From positions 51,098-115,097 of the forward strand of contig RSEH01000153.1 in the NCBI GenBank assembly GCA_006503475.1: 64,000 nucleotides of DNA, written 5' to 3'. Numbering within the stretch: the first letter of the stretch is position 1; every line of letters starts with the position of its first letter. The stretch comes from Stentor roeselii. Its lineage: Eukaryota; Ciliophora; Heterotrichea; Heterotrichida; Stentoridae. Position numbers and translations under genes: made by a program. The notes beneath the pieces are model-generated. The model was not told the DNA's origin. It worked only from the letters and a program-made list of their open reading frames with translations, and ran no database searches. Of this stretch, positions 10,344 to 56,400 are shown piece after piece.

Positions 10344-11033
10344 ATGATCGCATTTAAAACACTGCTCAAAAGGATGAAAAAAAACATCTGGGTACCTCCA
10401 GGAGTACCTCCAGAAGCCGTCGAAAATTTCGATGTCGAGATAATTCCAAAAGAAATCGAAGACGAAATCGAGTCAAGATGCGAACAATTCGGTCCACTCC
10501 AAGAGCGTCCAGTTCTTCACGAGTTTGAAATGAAGCTAATAGAATACTCAGAAGAAACAAAAGAATACTCAATAAACACAGTGAACTCATCAAAGTACTT
10601 CGACGAGAACATCGTGATCGCCATCGGGATCATTGGAGCCTTTGTGCCGGAATGCACAAGAGAAGTGGTTTACGACTGGGCAGTGGCATCAGGCGCTTAC
10701 GAGTCACGTTTCGATATAAACAAAGTAGTGATAGTTTCAAGGAACGACCCTTACGTGATGTTGAAATTTGCCCAAAAGTTGAACTATGAAGGGCGTCTTT
10801 CCTTTTTAGCTGATTGGGATGGAACTTTTAATAAGTACATCGAAATGGACGTGGAACACAAATTGGAACTTGGAGTGAGAAATCATCGATATATGGCTTT
10901 TTTGTTGGGGAACTCTTTGAGAGTAGTGCATAAAAGTTACTATAGTCATTTGTTTTACTCCAAGTGCATTCACCCGATTTTCCTATGGCAACGGCTGATG
11001 TTTAAAAAGAAGATTCCGATTTACTTTAATTAA
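10344..11033 (+). CDS. Peroxiredoxin-5-like redoxin protein
   Basis: 229 residues starting at ATG after CCAAA. Residues about 88-200 follow the Prx5 fold: a beta strand IVIAIG, GAFVPEC around Cys104, KVVIVSRNDPYVM (compare SVNDPFV), LSFLADWDGTFNKYI (compare LADWNGAFTK) and NHRYMAFLL. Prx5 enzymes reduce peroxides using a Cys in a P-x3-T/S-x2-C motif. Here the Cys is kept (C104), but the Pro and Thr of the motif are Ile97 and Val101, so normal peroxidase activity is doubtful. An N-terminal 85-residue extension and a basic, hydrophobic C-terminus are unusual for the family. The stop overlaps the stop of the converging RBR ligase gene. Confidence 0.75.
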   Translation: MIAFKTLLKRMKKNIWVPPGVPPEAVENFDVEIIPKEIEDEIESRCEQFGPLQERPVLHEFEMKLIEYSEETKEYSINTVNSSKYFDENIVIAIGIIGAFVPECTREVVYDWAVASGAYESRFDINKVVIVSRNDPYVMLKFAQKLNYEGRLSFLADWDGTFNKYIEMDVEHKLELGVRNHRYMAFLLGNSLRVVHKSYYSHLFYSKCIHPIFLWQRLMFKKKIPIYFN

Positions 11034-12989: not shown

Positions 12990-13709
12990 TTAACTGACAC
13001 CTAAGATACTTTTAAAAAAGTTGATCATTTTACATGTGTAAAGTTCCAAGTAAATCTTATGACTCAAATGTCTAGCACGAGTCCCTTCCAAACCTTTATG
13101 CAAGTAGCCATTCTTCGCTTCAATTTCCCTAAAATAAGTGAAATAATGTCCCCTAATTTCTTTATCATAAACCTTCACAACAGGCCACAAAAACTGATCA
13201 TAAACCCTATCAAAATACTCAACAGGGTATCTTTTCCCATCCTTCCCCCTAACCGAATAAATCATCTGACTTCCTAAAGTCGTTTCAAAGCTTTTTTCCA
13301 AAGACTTTTCAGTATCCACCGCTTTCTTCCCATCAAAATATCCAATACTAACACTATTTCCCACCTCATCAACTTTCGGGTAACAATATTTTAACACCTG
13401 AACTGCATTATCAATATTTTCACATTGAAAAATTTTATATCCACTGACCTCATCGCCTCCAAGCGCTTCACATTTTGCGCTTTTCAAGTAAGCTCCAGGC
13501 GACTCAGGGAAAAAAGTTCCATCTTGTGCATCAGTGACAGTTCCTATAATCAAAGGCCTTAAATGAAGAATATGCGCAGGGGACTGGAGACCTCCAGCTA
13601 AAAACTTTCCAATAAACTTAGCCGAAACAGTGAAGCCAGTCCTGAACTCAAGATTATCAGATTCAAGGACATCAATGAACCTGAAGTCATTTCTTGTTAA
13701 CACAACCAT
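12990..13709 (-). CDS. Unrecognised conserved-looking protein
   Basis: 239 residues from ATG 13709; I do not recognise the family. It is soluble, with no signal peptide, membrane segment or coiled coil. Notable stretches are an aromatic-rich block (YFDRVYDQFLWPVVKVYD, residues about 165-182), RGHYFTYFREIEAKN and the charged LEGTRARHLSHK near the C-terminus. The balanced composition and start context (TATAA upstream) argue that it is a real gene. Its start lies 26 bp from the start of the divergent ankyrin gene, and its stop is 24 bp upstream of the dynein-stalk-like gene. Confidence 0.75.
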   Translation of the reverse strand: MVVLTRNDFRFIDVLESDNLEFRTGFTVSAKFIGKFLAGGLQSPAHILHLRPLIIGTVTDAQDGTFFPESPGAYLKSAKCEALGGDEVSGYKIFQCENIDNAVQVLKYCYPKVDEVGNSVSIGYFDGKKAVDTEKSLEKSFETTLGSQMIYSVRGKDGKRYPVEYFDRVYDQFLWPVVKVYDKEIRGHYFTYFREIEAKNGYLHKGLEGTRARHLSHKIYLELYTCKMINFFKSILGVS

Positions 13710-13735
13710 GAAGTTTTTATAAGGCTAATACTTTA
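13710..13735. promoter_or_regulatory. 26-bp divergent start region with TTATAA
   Basis: The whole space between two divergent ATGs is 26 bp. The self-complementary hexamer TTATAA lies at 13717-13722, 7 nt from the minus ATG and 13 nt from the plus ATG. It reads the same on both strands and could serve both genes. Confidence 0.5.
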
Positions 13736-14630: not shown

Positions 14631-15587
14631 TTAAGAAATTATTGAAGTCTTGCAAGCAGCAGGTAGAAGTACAGTGGCTTCATATGTACACATTGAGACT
14701 TCTTTAAAATCACTGAACTCGAGATGGTCCGAGCACTGCAGATGTACTTTTAATGAACGAGAGACTTGATTAGGACAAGTCGTTCCTCCAGTGTACCTGA
14801 TGATTGAGTAGTCCTCTTCGAAGCCTGCCCAGTTTCTGATTATTCATTACCCTAAACTGTACTCCATCGACCCTTCTTTCTGATAAGCTCTTTTGAAGAA
14901 CTCAACAACATAACTGTACTTTCCTGCATCTTTCTCTAGTTTCTTACCCACCAAAGGAGAAAATTCTTTAAACTTTCCGAAATCCGAGTCTTTGACCTTT
15001 AAAATTTCATCTTTTTTTCCTTCTTTTTCTGATTTTTCTTCATTCATCTTGTCAATTGCGGATTCAGCAGATTCAAAAGAAAGTGATAAATTTTCAGCAT
15101 TTGACTTAAGTGCTTTAAGACCTGCAAGAGCTGAGTCAATTTCTTTGATTTCCTTTTCTAAAGACTTAAGATTTTCTTGATATTCGTTGACGATTTTATT
15201 TCCTAAGACGACCTGCTCGATTTTCAGTTTCATTCCTCGTTGCCACCTGTCGAACTTTTCCTTTTCAGAGGCTTTCTGGGATTGGAAGAACTCCTGACAT
15301 CGATTAGGACAAAGTCCAGTTTTTTCATCAGAGCCGTCACAACAGTCTACTTAAAACTTACCACAAATAGTGTCATGGACGAAAGAAGAGTGAATGATTT
15401 TTTCAGGACATTGAAATGAGCCGACGAGACAAGCTGACGTGGAAGACTCGTCTGAACCGTCTGGACAGTCACAAAAGTCGTCATTGATGAAAGAAGCAGG
15501 AATCACCCGAGAAGAGTCTCGACATTCAAAGAACTCACAGTTTTCTCCTTGGACTGAAAAAGAAGAAAGGACTAGAAAGGCCAGCAT
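14631..15587 (-). CDS. PRKCSH: Glucosidase II beta subunit (PRKCSH/GTB1)
   Basis: Three exons (15587-15362, 15346-14851, 14835-14631) give 308 residues. A signal peptide (MLAFLVLSSFSVQG) is followed by two LDLa-like motifs, DFCDCPDGSDES and ICDCCDGSDEKTGLCP, the second of which is built across intron 1. A coiled coil (about 110-190) follows, then a C-terminal MRH-like domain with NWAGF, RYTGGTTCP and MCTYEATVLLPAAC, the last built on exon 3. The beta subunit retains and activates the ER glucosidase II catalytic subunit, which trims glucose from N-glycans. At 308 residues it is much shorter than animal forms (about 530), lacks the acidic central region, and ends TSIIS without an HDEL-type signal. 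Confidence 0.9.
14836..14850 (-). other. 15-nt intron 2 of glucosidase II beta gene
   Basis: GTAATGAATAATCAG on the minus strand with A at position 10. Retention gives an immediate TAA. Removal adds the conserved C-terminal MRH-like end. Confidence 0.9.
15347..15361 (-). other. 15-nt intron 1 of glucosidase II beta gene
   Basis: GTAAGTTTTAAGTAG on the minus strand with A at position 10. Removal makes Asp from G and AC and completes the DCCDGSDE motif. Confidence 0.93.
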
Positions 15588-17867: not shown

Positions 17868-17889
17868 TTTTTTGTTTATAATTAAAGAT
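17868..17889. promoter_or_regulatory. 22-bp divergent start region centred on TTATAA
   Basis: The only DNA between the NT-C2 and DENN start codons. The self-complementary TTATAA lies at 17876-17881, exactly 8 nt from each ATG. It is the likely shared initiation signal (inference). Confidence 0.55.
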
Positions 17890-19596
17890 ATGGAAAATTC
17901 GTCTAACTATTGGAAAGAAAATTACTTCAAGGTCTATGCGGAAAATAGACAGTTGAGACTTGAACTTGAGAAATTGAAGGAGGATTATAATGAACTTAAA
18001 GAAAAAATTAAGAAATTTGAGGGACCTGGACTGCTTAGGGTGCCGTCGAAAAAGGGATCTATGAAGATTTCGAGTTTAAGTGATTCGAGCCGTATTCAGA
18101 CTCTTACTTCGACTATTGTAGCACCTGCTTACGACATCAGCAAGCTAGAAGATGCAAGTCTAAAAGGATCATTCAAATTTTCAGCGTCCAGTTCAGGCAA
18201 ACTAAAAGTACTATCAGATGATTTTCCAGTGACCAGTGCTGACCTGAACCCAGACCTTCATTTATTTGAAGACCTGTTTATAATAGGCGTGAGCAAGGAC
18301 TTTAAATCAGCAAGTATCCTGGACCGCTACTTGAACGATTTTGAAATGTAATAAAAACTCAGACCAGCTTTCGAAGTACTTCACGACTTTTGCTTTCCAG
18401 CAGGAATCCACGTCCGACAACTTTTATTGTCTGACTCAGCTTCAGAGCTGAATCGTTTGTTATACGGGCAAAACATTACTCAACGTAATGAAAACATGTT
18501 TGTATTCACATTAAAGCCAGTGGAAGGTCTCAGTTCCTATCAATATAACACTCTAGATGTTCTTTACTTTTGCTGCATTGTAATCGAAGACATCGCCAAA
18601 TTCGAAACAGCAGATTGGATAGTTCCAAAATGTTACTGCCTGGCAAGTTACTTCCCCCTATTCGACCTTCACTTCCAATTACTATCTAAGCTTCTCTACA
18701 TGATCCGAATCCGTAGAATGGAAGAGTTAGGAGGTTTAACAGCATCAATAAAAAACTTTTCCTCTCCAGACCTAACCCAAATAGAAAAAGATCTTCTCGA
18801 GTCCTACCGTTCAAAGTCAGAGCCTTTAGGCGGTTCAACCTTTCACCTTCCAGTATCAATGCAAGACCCAATAACCCAGTACTTCCCCGCAGATTTCCAT
18901 TCAGTAGAAAGCATCTGGCTATGCACTCCAATCTTTTCCCTTCTTCAATTCAAGGACTTTTTCTGGCTTTGGAACGCGGTGCTTCTTGAGAAGTCAGTAG
19001 TTGTAGTAAGCTGCAACCTTGCACTGCTCACATCTTTTGTGTAAGACTTAAACAGCTTAGGACTGAAAAACATCCTGAGACCTCTGGAATGGCAACACGT
19101 TCTTCTGCCTCTCGTCCCTGACTCACTTCGAGAGTTAATCGAAGCTCCAGTTCCTTTGCTCATCGGAATCCCTGCCCCTGCTCCTCCTCTCAGAAAAAGC
19201 TACAAAAATCTGGTCTGGGTCATGCTTGACGAGCCGTCCATGGCAAGACGGTTGCAACCTGGCAAGAGAGTTTTAGGAGAAGTTAAAGAAATCTACTTGA
19301 ATGGCATCAAAGAAAAACTCGGATATGAATATGCGAAGTTCGGAAATTCAGGAATTGTGTATCAACCAAATGAAAAACAAAGTGAAGCGATTAAAAGTGT
19401 CGTTGTTTTAATGGTTTCTGCGATTAACTCACTGTTGAGAAATCTTCCGAAAGTGGAGAAAAATGACTTTCAACAGATTAACGTGGTTCTTGAAAATTCT
19501 CTTGGAAAATTTAACCAAGCAGACCATTTGTTTTTGAAATCGTTTTTCTCGACGCAGTTGTTGGTGCATTACCTTGAATCAAGTATTAAAGTGTAG
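17890..19596 (+). CDS. DENN-domain protein (probable Rab GEF)
   Basis: Three exons (17890-18347, 18363-19040, 19056-19596) give 558 residues. The N-terminus has a short coiled coil (residues about 10-45). The uDENN part begins near residue 130 and includes IPAFEVLHDFCFPAG, which crosses intron 1. The cDENN core includes FSLLQFKDFFWLWNAVLLEKSVVVVSCNLALLTSFV, continued after intron 2 by LRPLEWQHVLLPLVP and APVPLLIGI, the classic DENN pattern. DENN proteins catalyse GDP/GTP exchange on Rab GTPases in membrane traffic; the Rab partner cannot be told from sequence. Two in-frame stops separate these parts unless the 15-nt introns are removed. Confidence 0.9.
18348..18362 (+). other. 15-nt intron 1 of DENN gene
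   Basis: GTAATAAAAACTCAG with A at position 10. Removal makes Ile from AT and A, and continues the uDENN motif. Confidence 0.93.
19041..19055 (+). other. 15-nt intron 2 of DENN gene
   Basis: GTAAGACTTAAACAG with A at position 10. Removal makes Val from GT and C inside the cDENN core. Confidence 0.93.
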
Positions 19597-19629
19597 TTTT
19601 AATAGTAGAAGAAATGATTATTTTATAAT

Positions 19630-20346: not shown

Positions 20347-20374
20347 TCAGATTTTATAACAAATAATCTTATTA

Positions 20375-23501: not shown

Positions 23502-23645
23502 AGGAATTGTTTTAATAAAGACAGTTGATTTATTAATATGAATGTTGAGAATCGTGAATGTATGGTTTTAGGTAATTAAATAGATAACAGTTTCCGATTT
23601 TTCTATTCTATTCATGCCTAACTTTCTACTAACCTCTAGTTTATA

Positions 23646-24203
23646 ATGTTTATTTTTCTTTTATTCTCTCTCGTCAACTGCAACCGGTTCTTAGTGGACA
23701 CTCTGGACCACATAAAGTTCGTTCGGGATATTCGAGGTCTAGGGCTGAAGCAAGAACTCCACACATCGATTGACTTGCTCTACCCGATGGACTGCATTTT
23801 GTTTGAATCCATTTCAAAAGACTGGTTCATCGACATCGAAGAGGTTCCAAAAGACCTTCAGGCGGAGTTCGAGTCAAATATCGACATCGAGCTTCCCTCA
23901 TCTTTATCAAATGCTCATAAATACACAATCAGGTTCAATAAAACCACTTCTTTCATGATTCCGATTCACCTCAGATACAATGAGTGCTCTTATACAGAGA
24001 AGTACAAGGAAATCTCCCTTCCAAATCCTACTCTCAAATGTGAAGGGAATCTTTATAGGATCAAGGGCGATCAAATCTCAGCTTTTGTTCCTGTTGGAGA
24101 CTTGAGAGATCGTGACTTGGTACTTATGGCGACTTTTTTGTTAGTCGCTGTCTCTGTAGGATGGATCGGATGGAGCGTTTTTAAAGGATTTCAAAGAAAA
24201 TAA
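23646..24203 (+). CDS. PIGX: PIG-X/Pbn1-like subunit of GPI mannosyltransferase I
   Basis: 185 residues starting right after TTATA. The protein has a signal peptide (MFIFLLFSLVNC), a lumenal domain and one C-terminal transmembrane helix (about 158-178) with a short basic tail. The lumenal part follows PIG-X: FVRDIRGLGL near the start (compare GFHRDL), LHTSIDLLYPMDC, ESNIDIELPSSLS, IPIHLRYNE, LPNPTLKC and FVPVGDL before the membrane span. PIG-X stabilises PIG-M, which adds the first mannose to GPI precursors in the ER. Length is close to the mammalian form (about 250). PIG-M is not in the window. Confidence 0.8.
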   Translation: MFIFLLFSLVNCNRFLVDTLDHIKFVRDIRGLGLKQELHTSIDLLYPMDCILFESISKDWFIDIEEVPKDLQAEFESNIDIELPSSLSNAHKYTIRFNKTTSFMIPIHLRYNECSYTEKYKEISLPNPTLKCEGNLYRIKGDQISAFVPVGDLRDRDLVLMATFLLVAVSVGWIGWSVFKGFQRK

Positions 24204-25455: not shown

Positions 25456-25753
25456 ATTTATTGTTGATGAAGGGAATCATGATGACTTGAGTCAGTAAAG
25501 AGATGTGATGGTTTAAGTTAATTTTGAAGTAGTTTGATAATAGTTTTTATTGTTAATTGAATTGTCAAGAATAAGGATTTATGATGGTTTATGATAGTAG
25601 TCATTCCAGGTCATAATAAGAGATTTATTATATTTAGATTAATCACAGGTAACAGTATTAAGCGAAATTATTTACTAAAAAGTATAATAGATCATTAAAA
25701 AACCTCAGTAGTCAAATCGTTAGAAAAGGTTAGAATCACTGCAAAATTTATAA

Positions 25754-26959
25754 ATGAACGGATTGTTTTTCATTTTATGGATCCTTCTATGCGGGTTAAT
25801 CTACATCCCAGTAGGAGTCCTCCTGATCTACAAGTCCAACAAAAAATCGATCAGAAACCGTTCTCCTCTATTCGTTTCAATCGGTCACTGGAGTAACCTA
25901 ATCGAGACAGTTTTCCTTCTAATCGCGCTATACCGATACCCATCATCACCATCCTCAGGTTGGGCATTTGACCAACTTTACCGTTTATTCACAATAATCG
26001 TGCACTACTCTTACTTCATATCCTACGTGCTGCGCTGTTACCGTCTTTATTTTATCTTTAACCTCGATAACAAAAGAGACGAGACCGACAGTTTTTTTAA
26101 TGCAAACATTCAAAGATCAGGTCAAAAATGGTTATTTAAAGTCTTCATCACATCCCTTTGGCCAGTGGTAATAATCGCTGTTCTAATAGCTTTAATCCCA
26201 GAAATAAGCAGCTACTTCCCAGCAGCTTACTATGAAGAGACTGAACCTAACTCAGGAGCGACAGCTAACTTTATATCTGAAGGGATTTATTTATTCGTGT
26301 TGTTTATCGAGGAAATCGTTTTTATTTTCTCAGTTTTTAAACTTAGGAATATTCAAGATGACTTTAAAATCACTGTCGAAATGAGCCTGGTTTGTGCATT
26401 GTGGGTCTTGACTGGCATGGTCTCGATCTTTACTAATGTCAACGTCTGGCTTGTGGAAGTGATCGTCAGGAACCACCTTATCATGATCATGAGCAGCATT
26501 TATCCACTTGTCAAGTCTTTCAATGCAGAGTCGTTTGAAGAAGTGATCACATTGGAAATGCTTCAAAGTCTTGAACTTATTCTCCAGTCTGAAGTCATTT
26601 TAAATACTTTTGAAAAAGTGATTCAACTTAAAACTGTTAAAAATTATAAAGGATGTGAAGTACTTGACTTGTGGCTTAAATGTGAAAATTTCAGGTTTAA
26701 AGAAACACCAGAGTTAAAAAGAGAAATTTTAGAAAATGCGAAAAAAGTGAAGATTTTTTCGAAGTCGCCGAATGGGATTAGTTTTGAATGTTTTCATATT
26801 TTAAACCAGCACTTTTTGCCAGTTTTTCGTGAGTCAGGAGAATTTAAGGACTTGATTCATCAGACGACGCAGCAGCAGATCTATATGAACCGTCTTCTGC
26901 AGACTTCATTGATAGGGTGTGAAAGTGATCCAGTTTACGTATTTCGTAACAAAGATTAG
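25754..26959 (+). CDS. Seven-transmembrane RGS protein (AtRGS1-like layout)
   Basis: 401 residues starting after TTTATAA. Seven hydrophobic helices occupy about residues 4-255. A cytoplasmic RGS-like domain covers about 265-385, with FEEVITLEML, ILNTFEKVIQ, VLDLWLKCENF (the W-L-x-C-E-x-F signature) and the FRESGEFKDLI end. RGS domains speed GTP hydrolysis by G-alpha subunits. A 7TM receptor fused to an RGS domain is known from plant AtRGS1 and some protists and fungi. The fusion suggests a receptor that switches off its own G protein. The 7TM part has no family motif I recognise. Confidence 0.8.
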   Translation: MNGLFFILWILLCGLIYIPVGVLLIYKSNKKSIRNRSPLFVSIGHWSNLIETVFLLIALYRYPSSPSSGWAFDQLYRLFTIIVHYSYFISYVLRCYRLYFIFNLDNKRDETDSFFNANIQRSGQKWLFKVFITSLWPVVIIAVLIALIPEISSYFPAAYYEETEPNSGATANFISEGIYLFVLFIEEIVFIFSVFKLRNIQDDFKITVEMSLVCALWVLTGMVSIFTNVNVWLVEVIVRNHLIMIMSSIYPLVKSFNAESFEEVITLEMLQSLELILQSEVILNTFEKVIQLKTVKNYKGCEVLDLWLKCENFRFKETPELKREILENAKKVKIFSKSPNGISFECFHILNQHFLPVFRESGEFKDLIHQTTQQQIYMNRLLQTSLIGCESDPVYVFRNKD

Positions 26960-33243: not shown

Positions 33244-34560
33244 CTAATCCCCATGAATCAAAGGCGCTTCATCAGTGAAACATTCAAAATAATAAAACTC
33301 TTCCAAACCCACATTTTTTTCTTTTCCTTTCTTAAGTTTTTCTTCTTTTCTTCCCTGCCTATTCAAAAGTTTTCCACATATTTCAAAGATTTTCGCTTTA
33401 GTTTCTTCATCTTTTTCTTCTGACTGTCTAACAATTTCAACGATTCTGTTAAAATCTTTAGCAATAAGCAGATTTGGATAAACTTTCAAGATTCGATTAG
33501 CTGAAAGTAAACAATGATAAATAACGTCTAGGTCTAAACTTGCAGTTTTGCAGTGATTTACTAGTTTTGAAAGGATTTTGTTGTAAAGTTCGTGATTGCT
33601 TGAGATGTGAGTCCTTCCTGCAACTATAGAAAGAAGGTTAAAAAGTAACGCTGTTGAAAAGTTTTGAAGAAATGGGTGAAGGTCTGGTTCCAGGTGATTT
33701 GAAAGGTACTCTGAAAGGCCCAGGTCTACCATCGCAGCTGCCGCTGCGTCATTAAGACTGAGTTTTTCAAGAGCAGCGATGCAGAAACGGCTACAGACGG
33801 AATTTTTTTCTTCTTTTTTCAGGAGGTTGAATATCAGTGTGCAGATGTAACCCGCGTTGTTACCGATCACGTATTTTTTACCTGGCTCTGATGAACTTAA
33901 CACGGAAACTAGAGCTAAGGTCGCACGCTGGACTGGGTAGTTTTTGCAGGTTATTAGCAAGTTTATGCTACCTCCTAGTATGTCGTTTTCGCTGAGGTTT
34001 GTTAGGAGAATGCCTCGGGATTTTTGTTTTACGTTTAGACATTCGAGTCTTACTTTCATTAGTACTTGAGTTAACTCTTTGAAGGACTTGGTTTCTAGAA
34101 GATGAACCATTTGGTTCCTAATGCTTTGCACATATCCAGGGGTTAAGATCGCTGCTTCTTTTGACTTGATTGACTTCACCCCCAAATCATGCTGCAGCTT
34201 GGAAAGCTGCAGTTTAAAGCTTGAGACTTGATCCTCAGCTTGTTTTACTTCTTCAAGGCATGTAACTGCACCTACTGCTATTTCAAAGATTTTCACTGAT
34301 GAAGATTTTAGCTGGTCATAAGACTTCTGCAGTTGAGCCAGTCGCTTTTCGAGAGACTGGGATACGGAGGACTTTGCTTCTTCACCCATGCAGTAGGTGT
34401 AAAGGGTTGGAAGTTTTAAAGATGAGTCTTTTTTTTTCTTTGGCTTTTGAGGGGCTAGTGACTTTGACTTAACTTCAGCTACAAAGCACTCGAGAGTCGT
34501 TGTTAGTGAGTTGTAGGCGAGATACTCTTTAATCACTTCCTGTGGGTAAAGTTCGTTCAT
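33244..34560 (-). CDS. ARMC9-like LisH/ARM-repeat protein
   Basis: 438 residues from ATG 34560. A LisH motif (VIKEYLAYNSLTTTLECF, residues about 9-26) is followed by a basic linker, a coiled coil (about 68-135), the ILTPGYVQSI block that matches ITPEYLQSV of ARMC9, and ARM-type helices (about 190-370) including LEKLSLNDAAAAAMVDLGL and NFSTALLFNLL, which resemble the ARMC9 core. ARMC9 works in ciliary tip signalling and basal bodies and is mutated in Joubert syndrome. The protein is shorter than human ARMC9 (about 818 for the long form). A ciliary role fits a ciliate but is inference. It shares a 12-bp divergent start region with a DEAD-box gene. Confidence 0.72.
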   Translation of the reverse strand: MNELYPQEVIKEYLAYNSLTTTLECFVAEVKSKSLAPQKPKKKKDSSLKLPTLYTYCMGEEAKSSVSQSLEKRLAQLQKSYDQLKSSSVKIFEIAVGAVTCLEEVKQAEDQVSSFKLQLSKLQHDLGVKSIKSKEAAILTPGYVQSIRNQMVHLLETKSFKELTQVLMKVRLECLNVKQKSRGILLTNLSENDILGGSINLLITCKNYPVQRATLALVSVLSSSEPGKKYVIGNNAGYICTLIFNLLKKEEKNSVCSRFCIAALEKLSLNDAAAAAMVDLGLSEYLSNHLEPDLHPFLQNFSTALLFNLLSIVAGRTHISSNHELYNKILSKLVNHCKTASLDLDVIYHCLLSANRILKVYPNLLIAKDFNRIVEIVRQSEEKDEETKAKIFEICGKLLNRQGRKEEKLKKGKEKNVGLEEFYYFECFTDEAPLIHGD

Positions 34561-34572
34561 AGATTATAAATC
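34561..34572. promoter_or_regulatory. 12-bp divergent start region centred on TTATAA
   Basis: AGATTATAAATC is everything between two divergent ATGs. TTATAA at 34564-34569 sits exactly 3 nt from each. A promoter of normal size cannot fit, so promoter elements must overlap coding DNA or initiation must be essentially at the ATG. Confidence 0.55.
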
Positions 34573-36329: not shown

Positions 36330-38093
36330 TCAAAAATCCAGTTCTTTGCTTCCTTTGCTCTGCACCGGGTTCATGTCCATCTTGAAGAAATTATCATCAA
36401 AAGAAGGCATTCCCCCTGCAAAGTTGAAAGCTTTTCCAAAGTCACCGAAACCTGCATTAAAGCCCATTGGTTCTGGTTTAAGTTCCAAAGGTTTTTCAGC
36501 TTTTTTCTCCAGGTCCTCGCTGAACTTGAACTGAAAGTCTTTTTTTGCAGGTTCTTCTGAACTCGAGCTATTTTTTCGAGGTTTTTCTTTCGCAGGTTCT
36601 TTTATTTTTCCTGAGTCAAGGTCAGCGAAAACATCGTCAGTTCTGAGCTTTGCAGGGAATGCGTCGAATTTCATTGAAAAGTCAGGAAATAAGGTTGATT
36701 CGATTTTTGCTTTCACAGGTTCTGACCTGGTCTCAAGTTTCACTTCTTTGAATTCGAATTTCTCTGAAGAACGATCTGGGAAGAAACTTGATTCGGGTTT
36801 TGAAGAGAATAAATTTGCTTCGGCCTTGGAATGGTCTTCTGGCGGCTTCGGGTCGGAAATTCGGGGCTTTTCTGAATCTTTTGGCTTGATTGGGACTGGG
36901 TCTTTGAAAAAACTGTCGAATTCGAAACCGATGTCTTTTTTTGGAATTTTGAAATCGTCTTGACGATCGACTGGCTTGGCTTCGGGTTTTATTGTCGCAG
37001 GCTCTGAGGGCTTTAAAGGCTCTGAGGGCTTTAAAGGCTCTGAGGGCTTTGATGGAGCTTGGGGTTCGATTGGACGAGATTTTAGAGATTGGTTTTCTTT
37101 TTTTAGTTTTTCTAACATTTCGGACATTTCTTGGATGCTTTTTTCGAACTTTTCTTTGGATTTTGAGACTTTTTTTTTGATTTTTTCGAAGTTTTCTTGG
37201 CTGTCTTTTAGCTTTTCTTCTAGGATTTTGTTTTTTTCTTTTACGAGGTCGAGCTCGGTTAAGTCGACTTCCATGAGTTCGCAAATGCTTTTTAGCATCG
37301 ATGTTTTTTCCTTTAAAATCTTCTCTTTTTCTCTAATAAACTTCTCAGTATCAATCTTCACAGTAACAGTCGAATTTTTTTTCGGTGACTCATAATTTTC
37401 CCCTAAAGTAGGCTGCGAAATCGGTTTCGGAGCATCAACATGCGATTCCGGGTCCTTCAACCTAACTTCCTGTTTTTTAGGTTCTTCCTTCACCACTTTT
37501 TTATTGAGAACCCTATCAAGTGATCCAGGTAAAGTATCAGGTACATCAATACCAGCACGAGCCTTAGCAATAAGTTGCATAGCGACTACAAACTGATCAA
37601 TATTCATATTCCCAGAGTTCATTCCAATTAAAATCCAAATCTTTTTAAGCACCTCAGGTGTAAAATTAGTCCTCTGCAACAATTCCCTGGCTTCAGCAGC
37701 AGTTAAAAATCCTTTTTCATTACTAAGCTTTTTAAAGCCATTAACATAAACAATCTGTTCATTTTCATTCAATTCCCATTCATCAGGCATTGCAGGAATT
37801 TCAATTCCTTCAAATCTAGGCAGTCCAACTTTTTCATGAATCATTTGAAGACTGACAGGTTTCCCTTCCTGTGCCAATGCAATAAGTTTCAAAGCAATAA
37901 AAAACCTGTTCTTATCCAAAAAGTCTTCCTTATTCGGCGTCGCCAGTTCCCAGATGGTCTTTAAAGTCGGAACTGCGATGTTTGAAGTTCGAAATAAAGC
38001 CACTGCCTGTCGCCCTTCAATGCGTCCTGACCCGGCAGGGTCTGTTTTGAGGAAGATGCTGGTATAATACTTTTGTTCAAGGTTTTCAGCCAT
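36330..38093 (-). CDS. EH-domain protein, EPS15-like
   Basis: 587 residues from ATG 38093. Two EH domains lie at about 1-95 and 105-205, with LKTDPAGSGRIEGRQAV and VPDTLPGSLDRV at the edges. A coiled coil follows (about 260-350), then a Pro/Glu/Lys-rich low-complexity region with KPSEPL repeats, and a C-terminal third with DPV, FSMKFD, FKFSED and similar short acidic-hydrophobic motifs, as in EPS15 tails that bind adaptors. EPS15-like proteins assist clathrin endocytosis. The gene starts 10 bp after the stop of the EF-hand gene on the same strand. Confidence 0.85.
   Translation of the reverse strand: MAENLEQKYYTSIFLKTDPAGSGRIEGRQAVALFRTSNIAVPTLKTIWELATPNKEDFLDKNRFFIALKLIALAQEGKPVSLQMIHEKVGLPRFEGIEIPAMPDEWELNENEQIVYVNGFKKLSNEKGFLTAAEARELLQRTNFTPEVLKKIWILIGMNSGNMNIDQFVVAMQLIAKARAGIDVPDTLPGSLDRVLNKKVVKEEPKKQEVRLKDPESHVDAPKPISQPTLGENYESPKKNSTVTVKIDTEKFIREKEKILKEKTSMLKSICELMEVDLTELDLVKEKNKILEEKLKDSQENFEKIKKKVSKSKEKFEKSIQEMSEMLEKLKKENQSLKSRPIEPQAPSKPSEPLKPSEPLKPSEPATIKPEAKPVDRQDDFKIPKKDIGFEFDSFFKDPVPIKPKDSEKPRISDPKPPEDHSKAEANLFSSKPESSFFPDRSSEKFEFKEVKLETRSEPVKAKIESTLFPDFSMKFDAFPAKLRTDDVFADLDSGKIKEPAKEKPRKNSSSSEEPAKKDFQFKFSEDLEKKAEKPLELKPEPMGFNAGFGDFGKAFNFAGGMPSFDDNFFKMDMNPVQSKGSKELDF
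37001..37054 (-). repeat. Three 18-bp coding repeats (KPSEPL)
   Basis: Three tandem 18-bp units with unit sequence GCTCTGAGGGCTTTAAAG on the plus strand encode the KPSEPL repeats of the EH-domain protein; the third unit is slightly diverged. Exact DNA identity between the first two suggests a recent duplication. Confidence 0.9.
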
Positions 38094-42299: not shown

Positions 42300-42839
42300 T
42301 TAACTCACAGCACTCATTTCTTGTAGTAACCATTCAAAACCTTCTGATGCTCCTTCTCCAGTTATCAGGCTTGTTAATACAACTTCATGTTTACAAGGAC
42401 TAGAAATTTCTAAAAAGTTGAGGAAATTACTTTTATTCCAAGGAGTCAAGTCCACTTTATTCCCAAGAACCAGAAAAGGAAGGTCTTTCAACAAAACATC
42501 TCCCATCAAGTCCTTCAAAGCAGTCCTGGCCTGTTCTAAAGTGCTTCCATCGCTTAAATCAAAAATAAAAATAACACCCTGACTTCCTTCAAAGTGATGT
42601 CTCCAGAAGAACCTGCTTTGTTCATCGCCTTTCAAGTCATAAAATGCGACTGTTAGTTTTGAGACTTTGAACTTATAACAACCGATTTCAGGTAAAGGTT
42701 TTGCGGCTCTTGGGTATTTTCCGACTAGCAAAGAAGTCAGAGTTGATTTTCCTGAACCTTTCAGCCCCAGACAGATGATTCTTCTGTTGTTTTTGCCGAA
42801 CCATCTGGAGTGATTGAGTTTGCTGGTGGTTTTACCCAT
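42300..42839 (-). CDS. Arf-like small GTPase with altered switch residues
   Basis: 179 residues from ATG 42839. It has the Arf-family layout: MGKTTS N-terminus (possible myristoylation), P-loop GLKGSGKST (25-33), YDLKGDEQ at switch II, and LGNKVDL. Compared with Arf, the switch I Thr (P-T-I-G-F) is Glu, and the W-D-V-G-G-Q element is Y-D-L-K-G-D, so the catalytic Gln and one Gly are lost. GTP binding is likely, hydrolysis by the usual mechanism is not. The CDS starts 7 bp after the stop of the CD36-like gene on the same strand. Confidence 0.85.
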   Translation of the reverse strand: MGKTTSKLNHSRWFGKNNRRIICLGLKGSGKSTLTSLLVGKYPRAAKPLPEIGCYKFKVSKLTVAFYDLKGDEQSRFFWRHHFEGSQGVIFIFDLSDGSTLEQARTALKDLMGDVLLKDLPFLVLGNKVDLTPWNKSNFLNFLEISSPCKHEVVLTSLITGEGASEGFEWLLQEMSAVS

Positions 42840-42846
42840 TTATAAG
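42840..42846 (-). promoter_or_regulatory. 7-bp gap with TTATAA between tandem genes
   Basis: TAG of the CD36-like gene is followed by CTTATAA and then the ATG of the Arf-like gene. The TTATAA element directly touches the start codon. Confidence 0.45.
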
Positions 42847-47809: not shown

Positions 47810-48685
47810 ATGGTATTTAGAGATAACCTTTTTCTTGGCTTGGACCAGGTAAAAATTTGATTAATAAGTAATAAGATTGGTTTTTGGAGATGGGAAAATA
47901 GATTTATTTAATTTTGATATAATAGTGGAATTCTGGCATTTGATAAATAGAATTCCAAGAATATAAAGTGTGTTCTTCATCATTTCTTATCTTTATTTTA
48001 GGATTTTACTTGAAATTATAAAATATCTACTCAGAAAAAAACTATAAAAACTTATTTGGAAAGTTTACATTTAATTTGATTTTCTAATAACTACAAGATC
48101 ATCATTTATAAATTTTTCAATTCCTTTAAGATCCTCAATTCTTATAAGTTTAATATTTCAAGTATACCTAAAAGTGACAAAAGATTTGTATACTTAATTC
48201 AACTAATTAGATCTTTATTTCATTTTTACTTAAATAGGATGTATTTAATATTTCTGTCTCATAACAATTATCATCTTGAACTATTTCTGAAAATGAAATA
48301 TTTTATTGTCCTAATGACAACTTATAAAGTTTTCGATAAATGTAGGATATTAATCATTATCAATTTATCTGCAATATCAATTCTATTCAGGTTACTTTGA
48401 TATAACCTTTGAAATTTATCAAAAACCCTAACTTTAAAAAGAAAACATAAAAATAATAATTATATAAGTTCTGAGTCTATTTCAGACTGATCAAAATTCC
48501 ATAATAATCATTTCAAACGATTTAATCAAGCTAGAACAAAATAAAAATCAAAAAAAATCATAAAGTCAAAATATTTATAAAAAAATAATCAAATTACTTT
48601 GAAAAACCCTTCAAAACACCTACTACATAAGAAAACAATCTAAATTCATTTAAAGAATTGAATGCAAAAATAATTCTTCTTATAA
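47810..48685. other. Gene-free AT-rich spacer
   Basis: 876 bp between the TRIM37-like gene and the first LNR gene. No frame is open long enough to suggest a gene and no tRNA or repeat is seen. It marks the change from the tightly packed left region to the looser right region. The last bases are CTTATAA next to the LNR gene ATG. Confidence 0.5.
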
Positions 48686-51600
48686 ATGTTCAGTATCTTG
48701 CTAATTTTAACTTTTGTTTACTCTGAAGATCAATGCATCTCATCATGGAAAGGTGATGATTATTGCGACCTTGTATGCATGACAAAATTGGATGAATTTG
48801 ATAAAGGTGACTGTCTTCTCTATTGCACTTCAAGCGGATGCTCCAAGACTGGTCCTGATTCAATTTGCGACTCTGAATGCGACATTGTTGAATGTGGGTT
48901 TGACTATGAAGATTGTGTAGAGTGTAGCCCAGGATGCACAGAACAAATGAGAACTAACAGTGAATGCGATCTTGTATGCAATAACATTGCTTGTAATTAT
49001 GATAATGAAAAGTGTCTATGTGCTGCTGGGTGTACTCCAGAGAAATTATCAAGTCTTAATTGTGAAGTGTCTTGTAATAATTTGGCTTGCAATTATCAGA
49101 ATGGAAAATGCCTTTGCGCTACTGGCTGTACATCTGATAAGATTTTAAGTCTTAACTGTGAAGAGTCTTGTAATAATTTGGCTTGCAATTATCAAAATGG
49201 AAAATGCCTTTGCGCTATTGGCTGTACTCCAGAGAAATTATCAAGTCTTAGTTGTGAAGAGTCTTGTAATAATTTGGCTTGCAATTATCAAAATGGAAAA
49301 TGCCTTTGCGCTATTGGCTGTACTCCAGATAAATTATCAAGTCTTAATTGTGATGAATCTTGTAATAATTTGGCTTGCAATTATCAAAATGAAAAATGTT
49401 TATGCTCCTCAGGATGTACGTTAGAAAAGCTCTCAAGTTTAGTCTGCTATGAATCCTGTAATAACCTAGCATGTAACTATCAAAATGAAAAATGCTTATG
49501 CTCTTCTGGCTGTACACCAGAAAAGCTTTCAAGTCAGGTTTGTGATGTATCTTGTAATAATCAAGCGTGTAATTACCAGAATGGCAAATGTTTATGTGCT
49601 CCAGGATGCACTTCTGATTTATTGATAAATAATTTTTGTGATTCAGTTTGTAACCTGCAAACATGCAATTACGATAACGGAAAATGCTTATGCGCAGTCG
49701 GATGTTCTCCAGATCTTCTAACTAACAATATATGCGATTCATCTTGTAATGTCTTGGCATGCAGCTATGATAATGGAGACTGTTTATGCAATGCAGGGTG
49801 TTATCCTAATCTTTTAGCTAATACTATCTGCGACTCAGTTTGCAATGTAAATTCCTGCAGTTATGATAATGGAAAATGTCTTTGCAGCTTAGAATGTCTT
49901 CCAGCGCTTTTGAGTAATGATGTGTGTGATTCTGCATGTAATGTTGCAGCATGCAACTATGATAACAATAAATGTTTGTGCAATCCGGGCTGCACACAAG
50001 ATCTGCTGAATAATGGCATCTGCGATATAGACTGCAATGTTTTTGCCTGTGGGTTCGATAATAATGACTGCTTTTGTGAGATAGAGGATGGTTTCTATAT
50101 CTCTGGAGAAAACTGTCTTAGTTGTCATCCATCTTGTCTTACATGCATCTCAGGAGGCCCTTCAGATTGCCTTTCATGTAAACCTAACTTTCAACTACTG
50201 AACTCCTCCTGCATCTGCAACATTTCTTACTTCAAACAAGGTGAAAACTGCCTGAAATGTCCAGAATCATGCCTTTCATGTTCTTCATCTCTTTACTATA
50301 AATGCAAAGAATGCAGTACATCCTTACTCGAAGGTATTTGTTACAAGCTCTGCCCCTTAGGCTACAAAAAACAAGGTTCGAACTGCATCTTAAACAACTT
50401 TCAAGCCATCAACTTTCGATTCGACGGAAGTGTTTCTGCTTTGCAAGAGCGAAATACAGGTGAAATGGCTGAGCCTTGCACAAAAGAGTCAGAAATAATT
50501 GTCTATCACAGAAAAGGACTGTTTTTTAATGGGCTCAACACGTGTTTTTCGTTTAGACCTGAAGATCTAGACAATCCCATAATCGGTCCAAGTTTTTCAA
50601 TGAATATTTGGGTTAGATCTTTAAATGAATTTGAACTTTTTGAACTTTTCTCATCAGAAGAGTTCTTTTTAAGGCTTTCTTTGTCACCTCAGGGGTTATT
50701 TTCAGGAGTTTTAAATAATGAGATGTTTCAAGCAGTTATGAATGGAAGTTTCAACGCTTTTGAATGGAATTGTGTTGGATTTGGACTTAATTATACAGAA
50801 AAAAGTGAATTTTTTTATAAGATCAATACAAAAATGATAAATACGATGATTTTAACGGTTAATCCTTATAAAGACTCTGAAAACTCGAAGTTGATTTTAG
50901 GCTCCAGGAATGAAAATAAAGATTTTTTTAAAGGTTTTCTGTTTTCTTTTGAGATTTTTAACAATTTTGTTAAGTTTGAAGAATTTTCAATAATTTCAGG
51001 AATCGGATGTGAAATTTTTCCGAAGTTTTTTAATGAATGTCTTGATATTTGTGGAGTTAATGAGTTTATGACAGAAGATTTCAAATGCGCTGCATGTCCT
51101 AAACGTTGCAAATTTGGATGTATTGATGATTTGACTTGTCAGATCTGTAAGACTGCAAATTGCACTGAATGTGATACTCTTGATTTAAGGATATGTTTAA
51201 AATGTGAAAACGGGTTTGGCCTTACTAATGGAACATGTGCAGAGTGTAGAGATTCTCAATTTTACAACCCGATGACCTCTACTTGTGAAAATTGCCAAAG
51301 TTTTTGCAAAATCTGCACTGAAAAAATATGTTCTGAATGTGAGGAGAATTTTGTAATAAATTCTAAAGGTATTTGTGAATGTCAGCAAGGTTTTGAACTG
51401 AATGATACTATTTGTCAGCAAGCATTTTTTTCAGCCTTTTTGTTGATATTTAGCAATAACTCAGTTATGGTAAAATTCGAAAAAGATTTGAAAGAAATTC
51501 TTACAATTGAAAGTTTAAAAGTTGAAGTAAATAATGATTCTATTGATTTTGATTTGGAAAAGATAGACTTGAAGTCATATATAATAAACTTGAAGCATTT

Positions 51601-52909
51601 AAAATCAATTAAAACTGACAACAGGAAAATTCAGGTCAAGTTCAAAGATAAAATCTTTTCAATTAATAATTTTCTACTTGTTGATAAGGTCTTAGAAGGA
51701 ACTTTGTTCGATGAGGAAGATGAAAATTCAACTGAAGACCAAAAAGATATAAATGTTGCTTCCAACTACGGGATAAACGCTTTTTTTATCGCGGGAGGTT
51801 TAACTGTTACCTCTTCTTTGATTTCCTTTAATCCTCTTCAGATCTTCTATTTTTTAAACATTTTAGAAATTTACATTTATTCTGTGCTTTTTGACCTGGA
51901 ATTCAATTCAAGTTTTGTTAAATTTATTGAAAATTTAAAAAATTTTACTAAAATTCCGAATTTTCTGGATAAAATATTGAAAATTCAATCAGATATACCG
52001 AAAAAATTTCATCGGCTTGGAATAAAAAACAGCTTTGCTTTGATAAATTCTATAGTTTCTTTGATTATTCTAGCAATTTTAATGATCTTGCAGATATTTT
52101 CTGTCATTTTTATGAGAATGAGTTTTAGGTTAAAACATTATGGGGAATATCTTAGATCTAAAATTGTTTTCGGCTTTTACTTAAGATTTTATTTCCAGTT
52201 TTTCCTTGATTTGGCTACTTTTTGCTTACTTTCAATAGTTTACACTAATTTTGAAAACATTTTCAATTTCTTTGACAAATTCTTCAGTATTTTCTTTTTG
52301 GTAATTATTATCTAGTCACTTTTATGCTTTTGCTTCATTTCAATGATAATAAAGCTATTCAGAATTTTTAGATATTGTAGTAATCAAGATTCAATGAAAG
52401 AAATGCTTAATGAATTCAAATCTAATTCCTACTCTTACTCATATTATTATCTTCTGTTCATCTTCAGAAGATTAATTCTTTCAATTTCAATTGTTTTATT
52501 CAATGATTTTTTTTTGCAGCTGACTCTTAATCTGGTCTTTACTTTTATTGTAAAATTTACTTAGGTTTTGTTTTACTTGATTTCAATTCAGCCTTTTAAG
52601 AGCAAGCAATCCTTTTCTTTTAATTTTGTATCTGAAATGCATATTTTTGTTTTCTATTCCCTTCTATTATATTTCTCAGCGAAACAAACATCACATTATC
52701 TAAAAAATTCCAAAACTCTAATCTTTCTTATTATTTCGACTTTTGCAAATATAGCTATTTTACAGATTGTGACTCTAGTGACAAGCAGCTATCAATTCAT
52801 TAAGAGTAAATGCACAAAAGCAAACAAAATAGCTCCTGAAGTAATTTTCACTACAACAGTCTCAAAAGTACAGATTTGGAAAAACCGAAAAGAAAAAGTA
52901 TTAGTTTAG
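48686..52909 (+). CDS. Large surface protein: LNR repeats, LamG-like domain, multi-pass C-terminus
   Basis: Three exons (48686-52300, 52316-52549, 52565-52909) give 1397 residues. A signal peptide is followed by two irregular and then twelve 32-residue LNR-type repeats (about 81-464). A Cys-rich furin-like stretch follows. A LamG-like beta region spans about 575-790 (RGLFFNGLNTCFSF, FSMNIWVRS, KLILGSRNENKDFFKGF). A second Cys-rich region runs to about 915. The last 380 residues carry several membrane helices, which the two introns join in frame. The C-terminal FIFRRLILSISIVLF and ISIQPFKSKQ blocks match the membrane modules of the 53411 and 63290 genes. A receptor, adhesion or channel role at the cell surface is inference. 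Confidence 0.85.
48926..50077 (+). repeat. Twelve 96-bp LNR-type coding repeats
   Basis: Twelve units of exactly 96 bp (32 residues, pattern G-C...C...C-N-N-x-A-C-N-Y-x-N-x-x-C-x-C) start at 48926, with no gaps. Units at 49022-49405 are the most alike at DNA level, which suggests recent unequal exchange there. Confidence 0.92.
52301..52315 (+). other. 15-nt intron 1 of LNR/LamG gene
   Basis: GTAATTATTATCTAG, phase 0, with A at position 10. Its TAG would end the protein inside a membrane segment. Confidence 0.88.
52550..52564 (+). other. 15-nt intron 2 of LNR/LamG gene
   Basis: GTAAAATTTACTTAG, phase 0, with A at position 10. Removal joins two halves of a membrane helix leading into the IQPF block. 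Confidence 0.88.
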
Positions 52910-53410
52910 TTTACTAGTTTAAGTAGATTTTAGACCAAATCGACTATGATTTGAGGCTGAGTTGAATATATTTAAAGATTCTTTTATAATATTACTTTTG
53001 CCAAATTATTCATTTGAGAGAGTGCTAATAAACTACACTATACACTTGAATTAATATTTTAGACAAATTTGAATTTAAGAATTATATATGTTTTGGTTTG
53101 AGAGTAAATAATAATGATCAGTTAATTTCGAAAATAAGCCTCAGAATATAAGATCTGATTTAATTCTACGTGATTATATATAAGATTAAACAAAATTCCA
53201 TCAAAGGAACGATTAAACTATTTTCCATTTTATTTACTACAGCATAATCTAATTTTCCATATTTAATTTTGATATAATTTCTAAGTTGTTCGGATTTAAA
53301 TTTTCTTATCTTTCAATCTTCTTTTAAGCAAAGAGACTATATTGTTTAACTTAATACCAAATTGATGTATTTCATTTTTATATCATCAATCAAAAAAATT
53401 TAACTTATAA
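52910..53410. other. Gene-free AT-rich spacer
   Basis: 501 bp between two same-strand LNR genes. Nothing codes here that I can see. It ends with CTTATAA directly before the next ATG, the same seven bases as before the 48686 start. Confidence 0.5.
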
Positions 53411-56400
53411 ATGATTTTTAGCCTGATGTTTATGATTGGCACTATCAGCAGCTCTTGCAATGAAAATTGCACAGAAGTTTTACTTAACAATAGTAACTGC
53501 GATTTCTCATGCATGACTGCATCATGTGACTTTGATCTTGGTGACTGTCTGGTATCTTGCAATCAAACTGGTTGTAATAAGACAAGTCCTGATTCATCTT
53601 GTGACCTTAGCTGCAATTTTAAAGAATGCGGATATGACTACGGTGATTGTTTAGATTGCAGTCCAGGATGCACGAGCGAAATGCTTGAGAATACATCTTG
53701 TCAATCATCATGCAACAATTCAGCCTGCAACTATCAAAACGGAATTTGTTTTTGTGCCCCTGATTGCCCTCCAGTTTTCCTAAAAAATTCATCTTGTCAA
53801 CACCCATGCAACAATTCAGCTTGCAACTATCAAAATGGAATTTGTCTCTGTTCTCCTGAATGCACTCCAGAAAAACTTGGAAATTCTTCATGCCAACCAG
53901 AATGCAACAACTCAGCCTGCAACTATCAAAACGGAATCTGTCTCTGTTCTCCTAAATGCACTCCAGAAAAACTTGCAAATTCTTCATGCCAACCAGAATG
54001 CAACAACTTGGCTTGTAATTATCAAAATGAGTTGTGTTTATGTTCTTCTGGTTGCACTCCAGAAAAACTTGAAAATTCTTCTTGTCAAATAGAATGCAAT
54101 AACTCGGCTTGTAATTTTCAGAATGAGTTTTGTAATTGTTCTTTTGATTGCACTCCAGAAAAACTTAAAAATTTAACTTGTCAAATAGAGTGCAACAACT
54201 CGGCCTGTAACTATCAAAATGAATTATGCCTATGCTCCTCTGGATGCACTCCGACCAAGTTTGAAAATTCTTCATGCCAAAAAGAGTGCAACAACTCGGC
54301 TTGCAACTATCAAGATGAGTTGTGTCTCTGTTCTTCTGGTTGCACTCCAGAAAAACTTGCAAATTTAACTTGTCAAACAGAATGCAACAACTCAGCTTGT
54401 AACTTTCAAAATGAATTGTGTTTATGTTCGGCTGGATGTACTCCGACAAAATTTGCAAATTCTTCATGTCAAGCAGAGTGCAATAATTCAGCTTGTAACT
54501 ACCAAAATGAAAAATGCCTATGTGCCTCTGGATGCACTCCAGAAAAAATTGCGAATTCAATTTGTGAATCTTCATGCAACAATTCAGCTTGTAACTATGA
54601 CAATGATACTTGTTTATGTGCTCCTGGCTGCACTCCAGAGAAATTTGAAAATTCAACATGTGAAGATTCATGTAATAATTTAGCCTGCAACTATCAGAAT
54701 GAAATTTGCTTATGTGCTCCAGGGTGCACTCCGGAAAAAATTGAAAATTCGACTTGTCAACTTTCATGTAATAACTCAGAATGTGACTATCAAAATGGGA
54801 AATGTTTATGTAGTCCAGGCTGCTATCCAGATTTAATTTCAAATAAAATTTGTGACAAGTTTTGTAATGAATCATCATGCTGGTGGGACGGTAACGACTG
54901 TGATTGTAACTCGGGTTGTCATCGAAACATGATAAATGACAGTATCTGCAACCCTGAATGCAATGTATCTGAATGCTTTTATGATTGGGACGATTGTAAC
55001 TGTGCACATGGTTGTAATGCAATTCGACTTGGCAACAATATTTGCGATTTAAGCTGTAATGTCTCAGAATGTTTTTATGATTATGAAGATTGCAATTGTG
55101 ATCCAGAGTGCGACTGGAATTGGATAAATGACGGAGTTTGTCAAACTGTTTGTAATACAAATAATTGCTCTTATGATGGAGGAGACTGCAACTGTCATGG
55201 TGAGTGTTACGAATATATGATTAGGAATTCTTATTGTGATAGTGACTGTAATGTTACTGAATGCATATTTGATGATGGGGATTGTGACTGCTTTCCTGGA
55301 TGCTCGCCCACTATGTTCAATACAGGAACTTGCGATGATATATGTAATCGAACAGAATGTCATTTCGACGGCAATGATTGCAATTGCAATACAGACTGCC
55401 ATCAATCTATGCTAAATAATAATATTTGTGATGTCGCCTGCAACGTCTCTAGTTGTTTCTACGACTACGAAGACTGTGAATGCGATACAGGATGCAACCC
55501 AGCAATGCTAAACAACAGTATATGCGACCCAAGCTGCAACACATCTCTATGCAATTTCGATTACGGAGACTGTGACTGCAGCCCAGGCTGCACCTTAGAA
55601 TTACTCCAAAACAATGAGTGTGATCCAGTTTGTGACGTGAAAGTCTGTTGGTTTGACTGGGGATTATGTGGAAGTTGCGCATCTGGATGCTTTGAATCAA
55701 TGATTTTTAATTCGATTTGTGATGATAAATGTCAAGTCGCTGATTGCGATTATGACTCTTTAGGATGCACAGACACTTTTTTCTACTGGGCGAATTTTAG
55801 TTTATTTGCCAGGGACAATGTGGAAAATGTTTATGAAATAAGCAATAATGAGTATTTTACTTTTACGAATGAGTCACTTAATGTTCAAATTTATGTTCTT
55901 GGAGGTGATTTCTGGTTTATCAACCAAACTGATCTTTTTGAATATTTGACTCCAGAAATTGTTATTATTGAACCTTTGTATTGCAGTCTTATCATTGTTG
56001 ATGGTTGTTATCTGGAAGGTCAAAGGCCGGTTTTTTATGTGATGAATGGGAAGTTCTTCGGGGTGAACATGATTTTGACCTTTAAGAATATTCAGTTTTC
56101 TGCTTTTCATAATATCAGTTTTTATAGTTCTGCTGAATATTGCCAGTATTTGAATATCAGTGGGTACCAAGTGTATAATGATAGAAAATTCAGAATTGAT
56201 GGAATTTTTTCTTTTTTAAATGATTCGATTTGCAGTAAAAGTGTTAATTTTAACTATTTTGATGTAAAAGAAGGAGGATTTTTGGGACTTTATGTAAGGT
56301 TTATTTAGGATGTTGCTTTTAAGAATATTCGGTATAACTATAAGTCAATAATTTTTTTGAATAATGGGTCGGCTGTACTGGAAAAGGTGGATTTTTTTAA

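Follow-up and report, generated by a model that had tools for sequence, protein, structure and literature searches.

How near to each other can two head-to-head genes begin, and can one short sequence element mark the start of both? In the 64,000-nucleotide stretch of Stentor roeselii DNA analysed here, hereafter the window (positions 51098-115097 of contig C63, in an assembly of 44.39 Mb and 522 contigs), the question is raised by three divergent gene pairs whose start codons are separated by 12, 22 and 26 bp (Table 1). Re-reading the sequence confirmed that a single copy of the palindrome TTATAA is present in each of these gaps, as the first-pass annotation had reported, and that this copy is exactly centred in the two shorter ones; in the third it lies off-centre.

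The two start codons that face each other across the 12-bp gap are credible, since the helicase aligns with yeast SPB4 over its residues 1-545 (E 1.3e-91), that is from residue 1 onwards, and the LisH match of its ARMC9-like neighbour begins at residue 9. The matches of the latter protein, ARMC9_LisH at residues 9-33 (E 0.0014) and ARMC9_ARM at residues 277-339 (E 1e-4), both fall below the curated cut-offs. Homology also supports the start codon at 17867, as the NT-C2 match begins at residue 9 of that protein, and gave no support near the N-terminus for the starts at 17890, 13709 and 13736.

Table 1. Short divergent gaps, their flanking genes, further copies of TTATAA near start codons and head-to-head pairs sharing one copy. 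Positions refer to the window unless a contig or locus is named.
Feature	Position (strand)	Remarks
12-bp divergent gap, AGA-TTATAA-ATC	34561..34572 (.)	ATGs at 34560 (-) and 34573 (+)
TTATAA of the 12-bp gap	34564-34569	3 nt from either ATG
22-bp divergent gap	17868..17889 (.)	TTATAA at 17876-17881, 8 nt from either ATG
26-bp divergent gap	13710..13735 (.)	TTATAA at 13717-13722, 7 and 13 nt from the ATGs
ARMC9-like gene, 438 aa	33244..34560 (-)	start codon adjoins the 12-bp gap
SPB4-type DEAD-box rRNA helicase, 578 aa	34573..36309 (+)	domains DEAD, Helicase_C, CTE_SPB4
NT-C2 domain protein, 596 aa	16077..17867 (-)	NT-C2 at residues 9-146, E 4.3e-15
153-aa ORF	17890..18351 (+)	no family above its cut-off
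239-aa ORF	12990..13709 (-)	without Pfam match
Ankyrin-repeat protein, 293 aa	13736..14617 (+)	Ank_2 at residues 164-228, E 2.1e-10
TTATAA adjoining ATG of Arf-family gene (42300-42839)	42840..42845 (-)	
TTATAA adjoining ATG at 25754	25748..25753 (+)	
TTATAA adjoining ATG of LNR (Notch-repeat) protein gene at 48686	48680..48685 (+)	
TTATAA adjoining ATG of second LNR protein gene at 53411	53405..53410 (+)	
TTATAA sharing its last A with the ATG at 23646	23641..23646 (+)	
TTATAA 1 nt upstream of ATG at 19630	19623..19628 (+)	
TTATAA 15 nt upstream of ATG at 20375	20354..20359 (+)	
Shared pair	L037	67 codons open on either side
Shared pair	L042	67 codons open on either side
Shared pair	L060	only 39 codons open per side, the limit of the stretch
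Shared pair	C1 78952	137 and 995 codons
Weaker shared pair	C63 37454-37478	16 and 3 nt; 62 and 322 codons; one short frame
Weaker shared pair	C1 4125-4163	16 and 17 nt; 1374 and 66 codons; one short frame

Some general features of the genome frame the analysis. Removal of a 15-nt GT..AG segment, with a consensus of about GTAAnnnTTAnnTAG, explains 26 of 112 isolated in-frame stops; for eight other segment lengths the figure ranges from 4 to 13. In-frame TGA is rare, with 1 of 41 helicase matches containing it, as do 3 of the 150 Ras-family matches that were scored. TGA terminates 16 of the 151 called genes, a count that is to some extent circular, TGA having been among the stops by which the genes were called. 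Such short introns and the near absence of internal TGA would suit a heterotrich ciliate that uses the standard code. One intron-like segment of 15 nt (GTAAG...TAG) lies on the minus strand at 15347-15361, where its removal restores the frame of what we take, by eye, to be a glucosidase II beta (PRKCSH)-like gene. In the contig stretches searched, four telomere-type repeats were not found. Blepharisma, for its part, is reported to have predominantly 15-16-bp introns and to read UGA as tryptophan (PMC9942806); in view of the rarity of in-frame TGA here, it was set aside as the source. Apart from these features, there are at least 150 Ras-family matches (150 scored of 267 candidates), with clusters on contigs C119 and C292. 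In 3 of the 33 convergent pairs on the contigs analysed, the two genes share exactly 8 bp around their stop codons, one of these overlaps being at 11026-11033; such an interlocking of two stops may be a preferred one.

TTATAA at gene starts

We have carried out an analysis of approximately 304 kb (contig C63, positions 1-140000 of C1 and 1-50000 of C339), on which the calling of ORFs of at least 120 aa resulted in 151 genes, whose starts are first-ATG calls mostly without homology support. Of 150 genes, 28 have TTATAA between positions -18 and +1 relative to the ATG, as compared to 0, 2, 3 and 3 of 150 when this interval is moved up by 40, 60, 80 and 100 nt, respectively, to 47 of 3949 internal ATGs with the hexamer at the equivalent place, and to 6.0 ± 2.3 genes expected from mononucleotide shuffles. 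When the window is left out, the hexamer is still found near the ATG in 17 of 113 genes, with 1 of 113 in the control. Between -24 and +1 it is present in 33 of the 151 genes, the expectation from dinucleotide shuffles being 8.1 (z 10), and it ranks first among the over-represented hexamers upstream of the ATG (hexamers seen at least six times, dinucleotide shuffles). Clearly, TTATAA is enriched near start codons and positioned with respect to them, and this holds outside the stretch of DNA in which it was noticed. The window contains 58 copies of TTATAA, but the distance to a called start is -1 to 18 nt in only 10 of them.

We consider it probable, at roughly 0.6, that a start-proximal core promoter or initiator is in general use in this genome and that TTATAA is its palindromic form, which may serve both genes where the gap is short. 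In fact, 21 of the 28 genes that carry it are arranged in tandem or flank divergent gaps of more than 40 bp, so that the hexamer belongs to gene starts at large and is not special to divergent pairs. The same counts speak against the dedicated, centred bidirectional element proposed by the first-pass annotation, as does the fact that none of six sharing pairs outside the window is centred. TTATAA is found in around one gene in five, and the shorter word YATAA near the ATG in 53 of 150, around one in three; these proportions indicate an element that is either degenerate or not universal.

The symmetry of the hexamer was also analysed in tandem genes, in which a T precedes 13 of 21 TATAA and an A follows 13 of 16 TTATA, indicating that genes without a divergent partner use the palindrome as well. 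The 8-mer matrix that was fitted (about YYWATAAW) is nevertheless asymmetric and has its strongest part in the ATAA half, so that the general form of the element is not palindromic. TTATAA is the shortest word with ATAA on both strands, which would account for its suitability as a shared site.

The distances between TTATAA and the ATG allow a second reading to be weighed, according to which the motif is an A-rich, Kozak-like context for the start of translation, not a promoter, and transcripts begin elsewhere. The enrichment of A at -1 (64%) and at -2 (55%) goes along with it, and so does the peak at the ATG itself, where 16 copies lie at distances -1 to 1, distance 0 being the commonest. However, a translation context should keep to a single distance, and a further 17 copies are spread over distances 2-18, against 0.9 expected; the spacing between TTATAA and the ATG is thus not fixed, and we regard the translational reading as rather improbable.

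At 42840-42846 a CD36-family gene and the Arf-family gene on the same strand follow each other so closely that CTTATAA, 7 bp in all, makes up the whole gap from stop codon to ATG. Two large neighbouring genes (48686-52315 and 53411-56308), which encode many Notch-type LNR repeats, both have TTATAA directly before the ATG.

Where transcripts may begin

Under the core promoter reading, RNA polymerase II would most likely begin at or just downstream of TTATAA, and the 5' leaders would measure very roughly 0-15 nt. The YATAA-type element, with its better conserved 3' half (ATAA), would set the start a few nucleotides before the ATG. We have examined the distribution of out-of-frame upstream ATGs, of which there are 5 between -12 and 0, against 9.4 expected (P 0.09), and about as many as expected beyond -12, with ratios of 0.73-1.22. 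Very short leaders would give such a pattern, as longer ones would select against upstream ATGs over a longer stretch; the depletion being limited to the vicinity of the start, as near-leaderless mRNAs predict, it weakly suggests such leaders. The proposal of the first-pass annotation that TTATAA may fix near-leaderless mRNAs thus finds partial support: the linkage of the hexamer to starts, mostly at 0-18 nt upstream, points in its favour by inference, and the depletion of upstream ATGs adds to it weakly. As to other ciliates, leaders in Paramecium are reported to have a median of 19 nt (PMC5485702), and those of 14 Nyctotherus chromosomes to measure 8-44 nt (PMC2633312). At the other end of the transcript, median 3' UTRs of 21-23 nt are reported for heterotrichs (PMC4967479); in the window, AATAAA-like words lie within around 20 nt after several stop codons, for example at 7521, 11033 and 23501, a proximity to be expected if 3' UTRs are very short.

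The spacing of the genes and the upstream ATGs also bear on a further alternative, that transcripts begin within the neighbouring coding regions and overlap, TTATAA in the gaps being a mere constituent of AT-rich intergenic DNA. Some transcripts probably do overlap their neighbours, as gaps of at most 15 bp separate 13 of 82 tandem pairs, and near starts many AT-rich words are over-represented. However, TTATAA exceeds dinucleotide shuffles around fourfold, and beyond -12 the out-of-frame ATGs, in numbers that are small, show no clear depletion, a point against long leaders. This alternative appears less probable still than the translational one.

In respect to the factor that would read a core promoter of the kind we favour, one gene for TBP with both repeats is present (locus L069, C77:62690-63400), and TTATAA lies 9 nt upstream of its own ATG. 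As judged by eye from its translation, the four DNA-contacting phenylalanines are presumably kept at their expected places. The element would be read by a TBP-containing complex. It shares the TATAA core with the canonical TATA box of eukaryotes; the latter, however, is situated around 30 bp upstream of the transcription start, a spacing that would here place the start inside the coding region. At the SPB4-supported start codon TTATAA is only 3 nt away, and a predicted start 30 bp downstream would lose this codon. A canonical TATA box at about -30 was provisionally set aside on this ground.

Sharing and centring in divergent pairs

Among the called genes, TTATAA is found in 4 of 5 divergent gaps below 30 bp, three of these five being the pairs in which it was noticed, and in 1 of 2 outside the window; the short pair devoid of it, on C1, has a gap of 9 bp. 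Counted by gene, TTATAA is near the ATG in 7 of 10 genes that flank divergent gaps of at most 40 bp and in 21 of 141 others (Fisher P 3e-4), and counted by pair, in 4 of 5 short divergent pairs (P 0.02); both values are too good, since 3 of the 5 are the very pairs in which the hexamer was first noticed, and the count by gene is also inflated by the copies that are shared. An excess of TTATAA specific to short divergent gaps is on these grounds only suggested.

One copy of TTATAA is common to several head-to-head ORF pairs. Nine such pairs were collected, namely the three of the window, four others (L037, L042, L060 and C1 78952) and two weaker ones (Table 1), the second CAT at 37448 being counted together with the pair at C63 37454-37478. 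The pattern CAT-N(0-9)-TTATAA-N(0-9)-ATG was used, of whose 1303 matches in the whole genome the first 50 in contig order, at 48 distinct places, were listed; 38 of these places were examined (20, then 15 hand-chosen from the remaining 25, and 3 on C1), and in 4 of the 38 both frames are open (L037, L042, L060 and C1 78952). Around 116 instances of CAT, gap and ATG were also obtained; the majority fall within longer called genes and were left out. Three candidates were dropped as one of their frames closes, after 39 codons in L034 (2 and 9 nt from the ATGs), 47 codons in L049 (1 and 3 nt) and 45 codons in L050 (3 and 3 nt), the last of which would else be a centred pair outside the window; allowing for one tiny intron by script opened none of the three.

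Exact centring is found in 2 of the 9 pairs, with 0.33 expected from uniform placement, and both are those that prompted the finding; with no centred pair among the six outside the window, centring as a rule is ruled out, and we regard it as incidental.

The counts over the whole genome give no excess of the shared arrangement over composition at either spacing. The 1303 matches with N(0-9) compare to approximately 1008 expected from component frequencies (ratio 1.29), and the backwards control yields 570 against 455 (ratio 1.25), so that the apparent excess of 1303 over 570 vanished once component frequencies were applied. With N(3-20) there are 2990 matches against 3265 expected (ratio 0.92) and 1616 against 1475 in the backwards control (ratio 1.10). 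That the divergent arrangement results from chance and the reader's selection, short AT-rich gaps sometimes holding TTATAA and two having happened to be centred, appears about as improbable as the overlap of transcripts; it accommodates the absence of centring and the single occurrence in two short gaps outside the window, together with genome-wide counts near composition, but is opposed by the strong enrichment of TTATAA at gene starts, which is repeated outside the window.

Related elements and a proposed mechanism

The first-pass annotation knew of no described element of this kind; this does not stand, as a TSS-seq study of Giardia lamblia reports a somewhat symmetric AT-rich initiator that is sometimes bidirectional (PMC3792122). 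Its consensus runs from -5 to +5 with respect to the start site, and ATTTTAAAATG is among the variants frequently seen (PMC3792122). Significant two-way expression within 5 nt is given there for 928 pairs of transcription regions, some cases starting both ways from one nucleotide between adjacent genes, and Teodorovic et al. 2007 are credited for bidirectional transcription; how symmetric an element was proved to be no predictor of bidirectional starts (PMC3792122). The likeness consists in an AT-rich, somewhat symmetric and start-adjacent element with very short leaders, predicted ones in the present case, and an AT-rich, roughly symmetric element beside the start codon, as characterizes a Giardia-type initiator, is indeed what we observe, the asymmetry of the matrix notwithstanding. 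The two differ in that transcription starts were mapped in Giardia, whereas the present element is known from sequence, and in that the variants listed for Giardia are mostly TTTAAAA-like, whereas the core is here TTATAA or YATAA (PMC3792122).

Other systems are similar in some respects and distinct in others. In the nanochromosomes of the ciliate Pseudokeronopsis an AT-rich putative cis element lies between the transcription start and the start codon, which its authors tie to transcription initiation and perhaps to translation; it is, however, a 15-nt motif (WnAWTWn) on single-gene chromosomes, and hence not common to two genes (PMC8899921). Halteria grandinella, also a ciliate, has an AT-rich, start-proximal TATA box-like motif and leaders of around 18 nt, but the transcription start averages 17 bp past the motif and the ATG follows 18 bp on, whereas the present motif peaks at the ATG (PMC7858049). 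The A-rich start-adjacent signal of Spironucleus salmonicida, proposed by its authors to be part of an initiator, consists of three or more A directly preceding the ATG, as seen in 33.0% of genes, with no palindrome described in the text available to us (PMC3916229). In Paramecium, one intergenic fragment used as a bidirectional transgene promoter drives two divergent genes; it measures approximately 1.9 kb, and the available text describes no single shared hexamer (PMC4937312). For heterotrichs, we found no description of this element in the open-licence literature.

Taking these comparisons together with the core promoter reading, a shared symmetric initiator is plausible, with a precedent in Giardia. 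As TTATAA carries ATAA on both strands, one copy could act both ways, and head-to-head genes with a gap below around 30 bp can share one palindromic copy. We infer the setting of the start site, the two-way action and the reading by a TBP-containing complex from the features described above. The part that concerns sharing is weakened by two more off-centre pairs, by the N(3-20) count, which is below expectation, and by the result on symmetry in Giardia. A bolder version would have the single TTATAA be the entire core promoter of both genes, with two initiation complexes that compete or alternate, near-leaderless mRNAs with 5' ends that meet or overlap inside the 12 bp, and the rRNA helicase and the ARMC9-like cilium gene coupled by mutual exclusion; we consider this unlikely, with odds of the order of one in a few.

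Should the proposed mechanism hold, the element would provide gene finders with a usable start signal in such compact genomes. Mutation of one hexamer could be used to probe both the orientation of RNA polymerase II at a symmetric site and the translation of nearly leaderless eukaryotic mRNAs. The 12 bp between the two start codons, with one palindrome for two genes, would constitute a very small natural bidirectional promoter, and heterotrichs would then have an independent parallel to the AT-rich initiator of Giardia.
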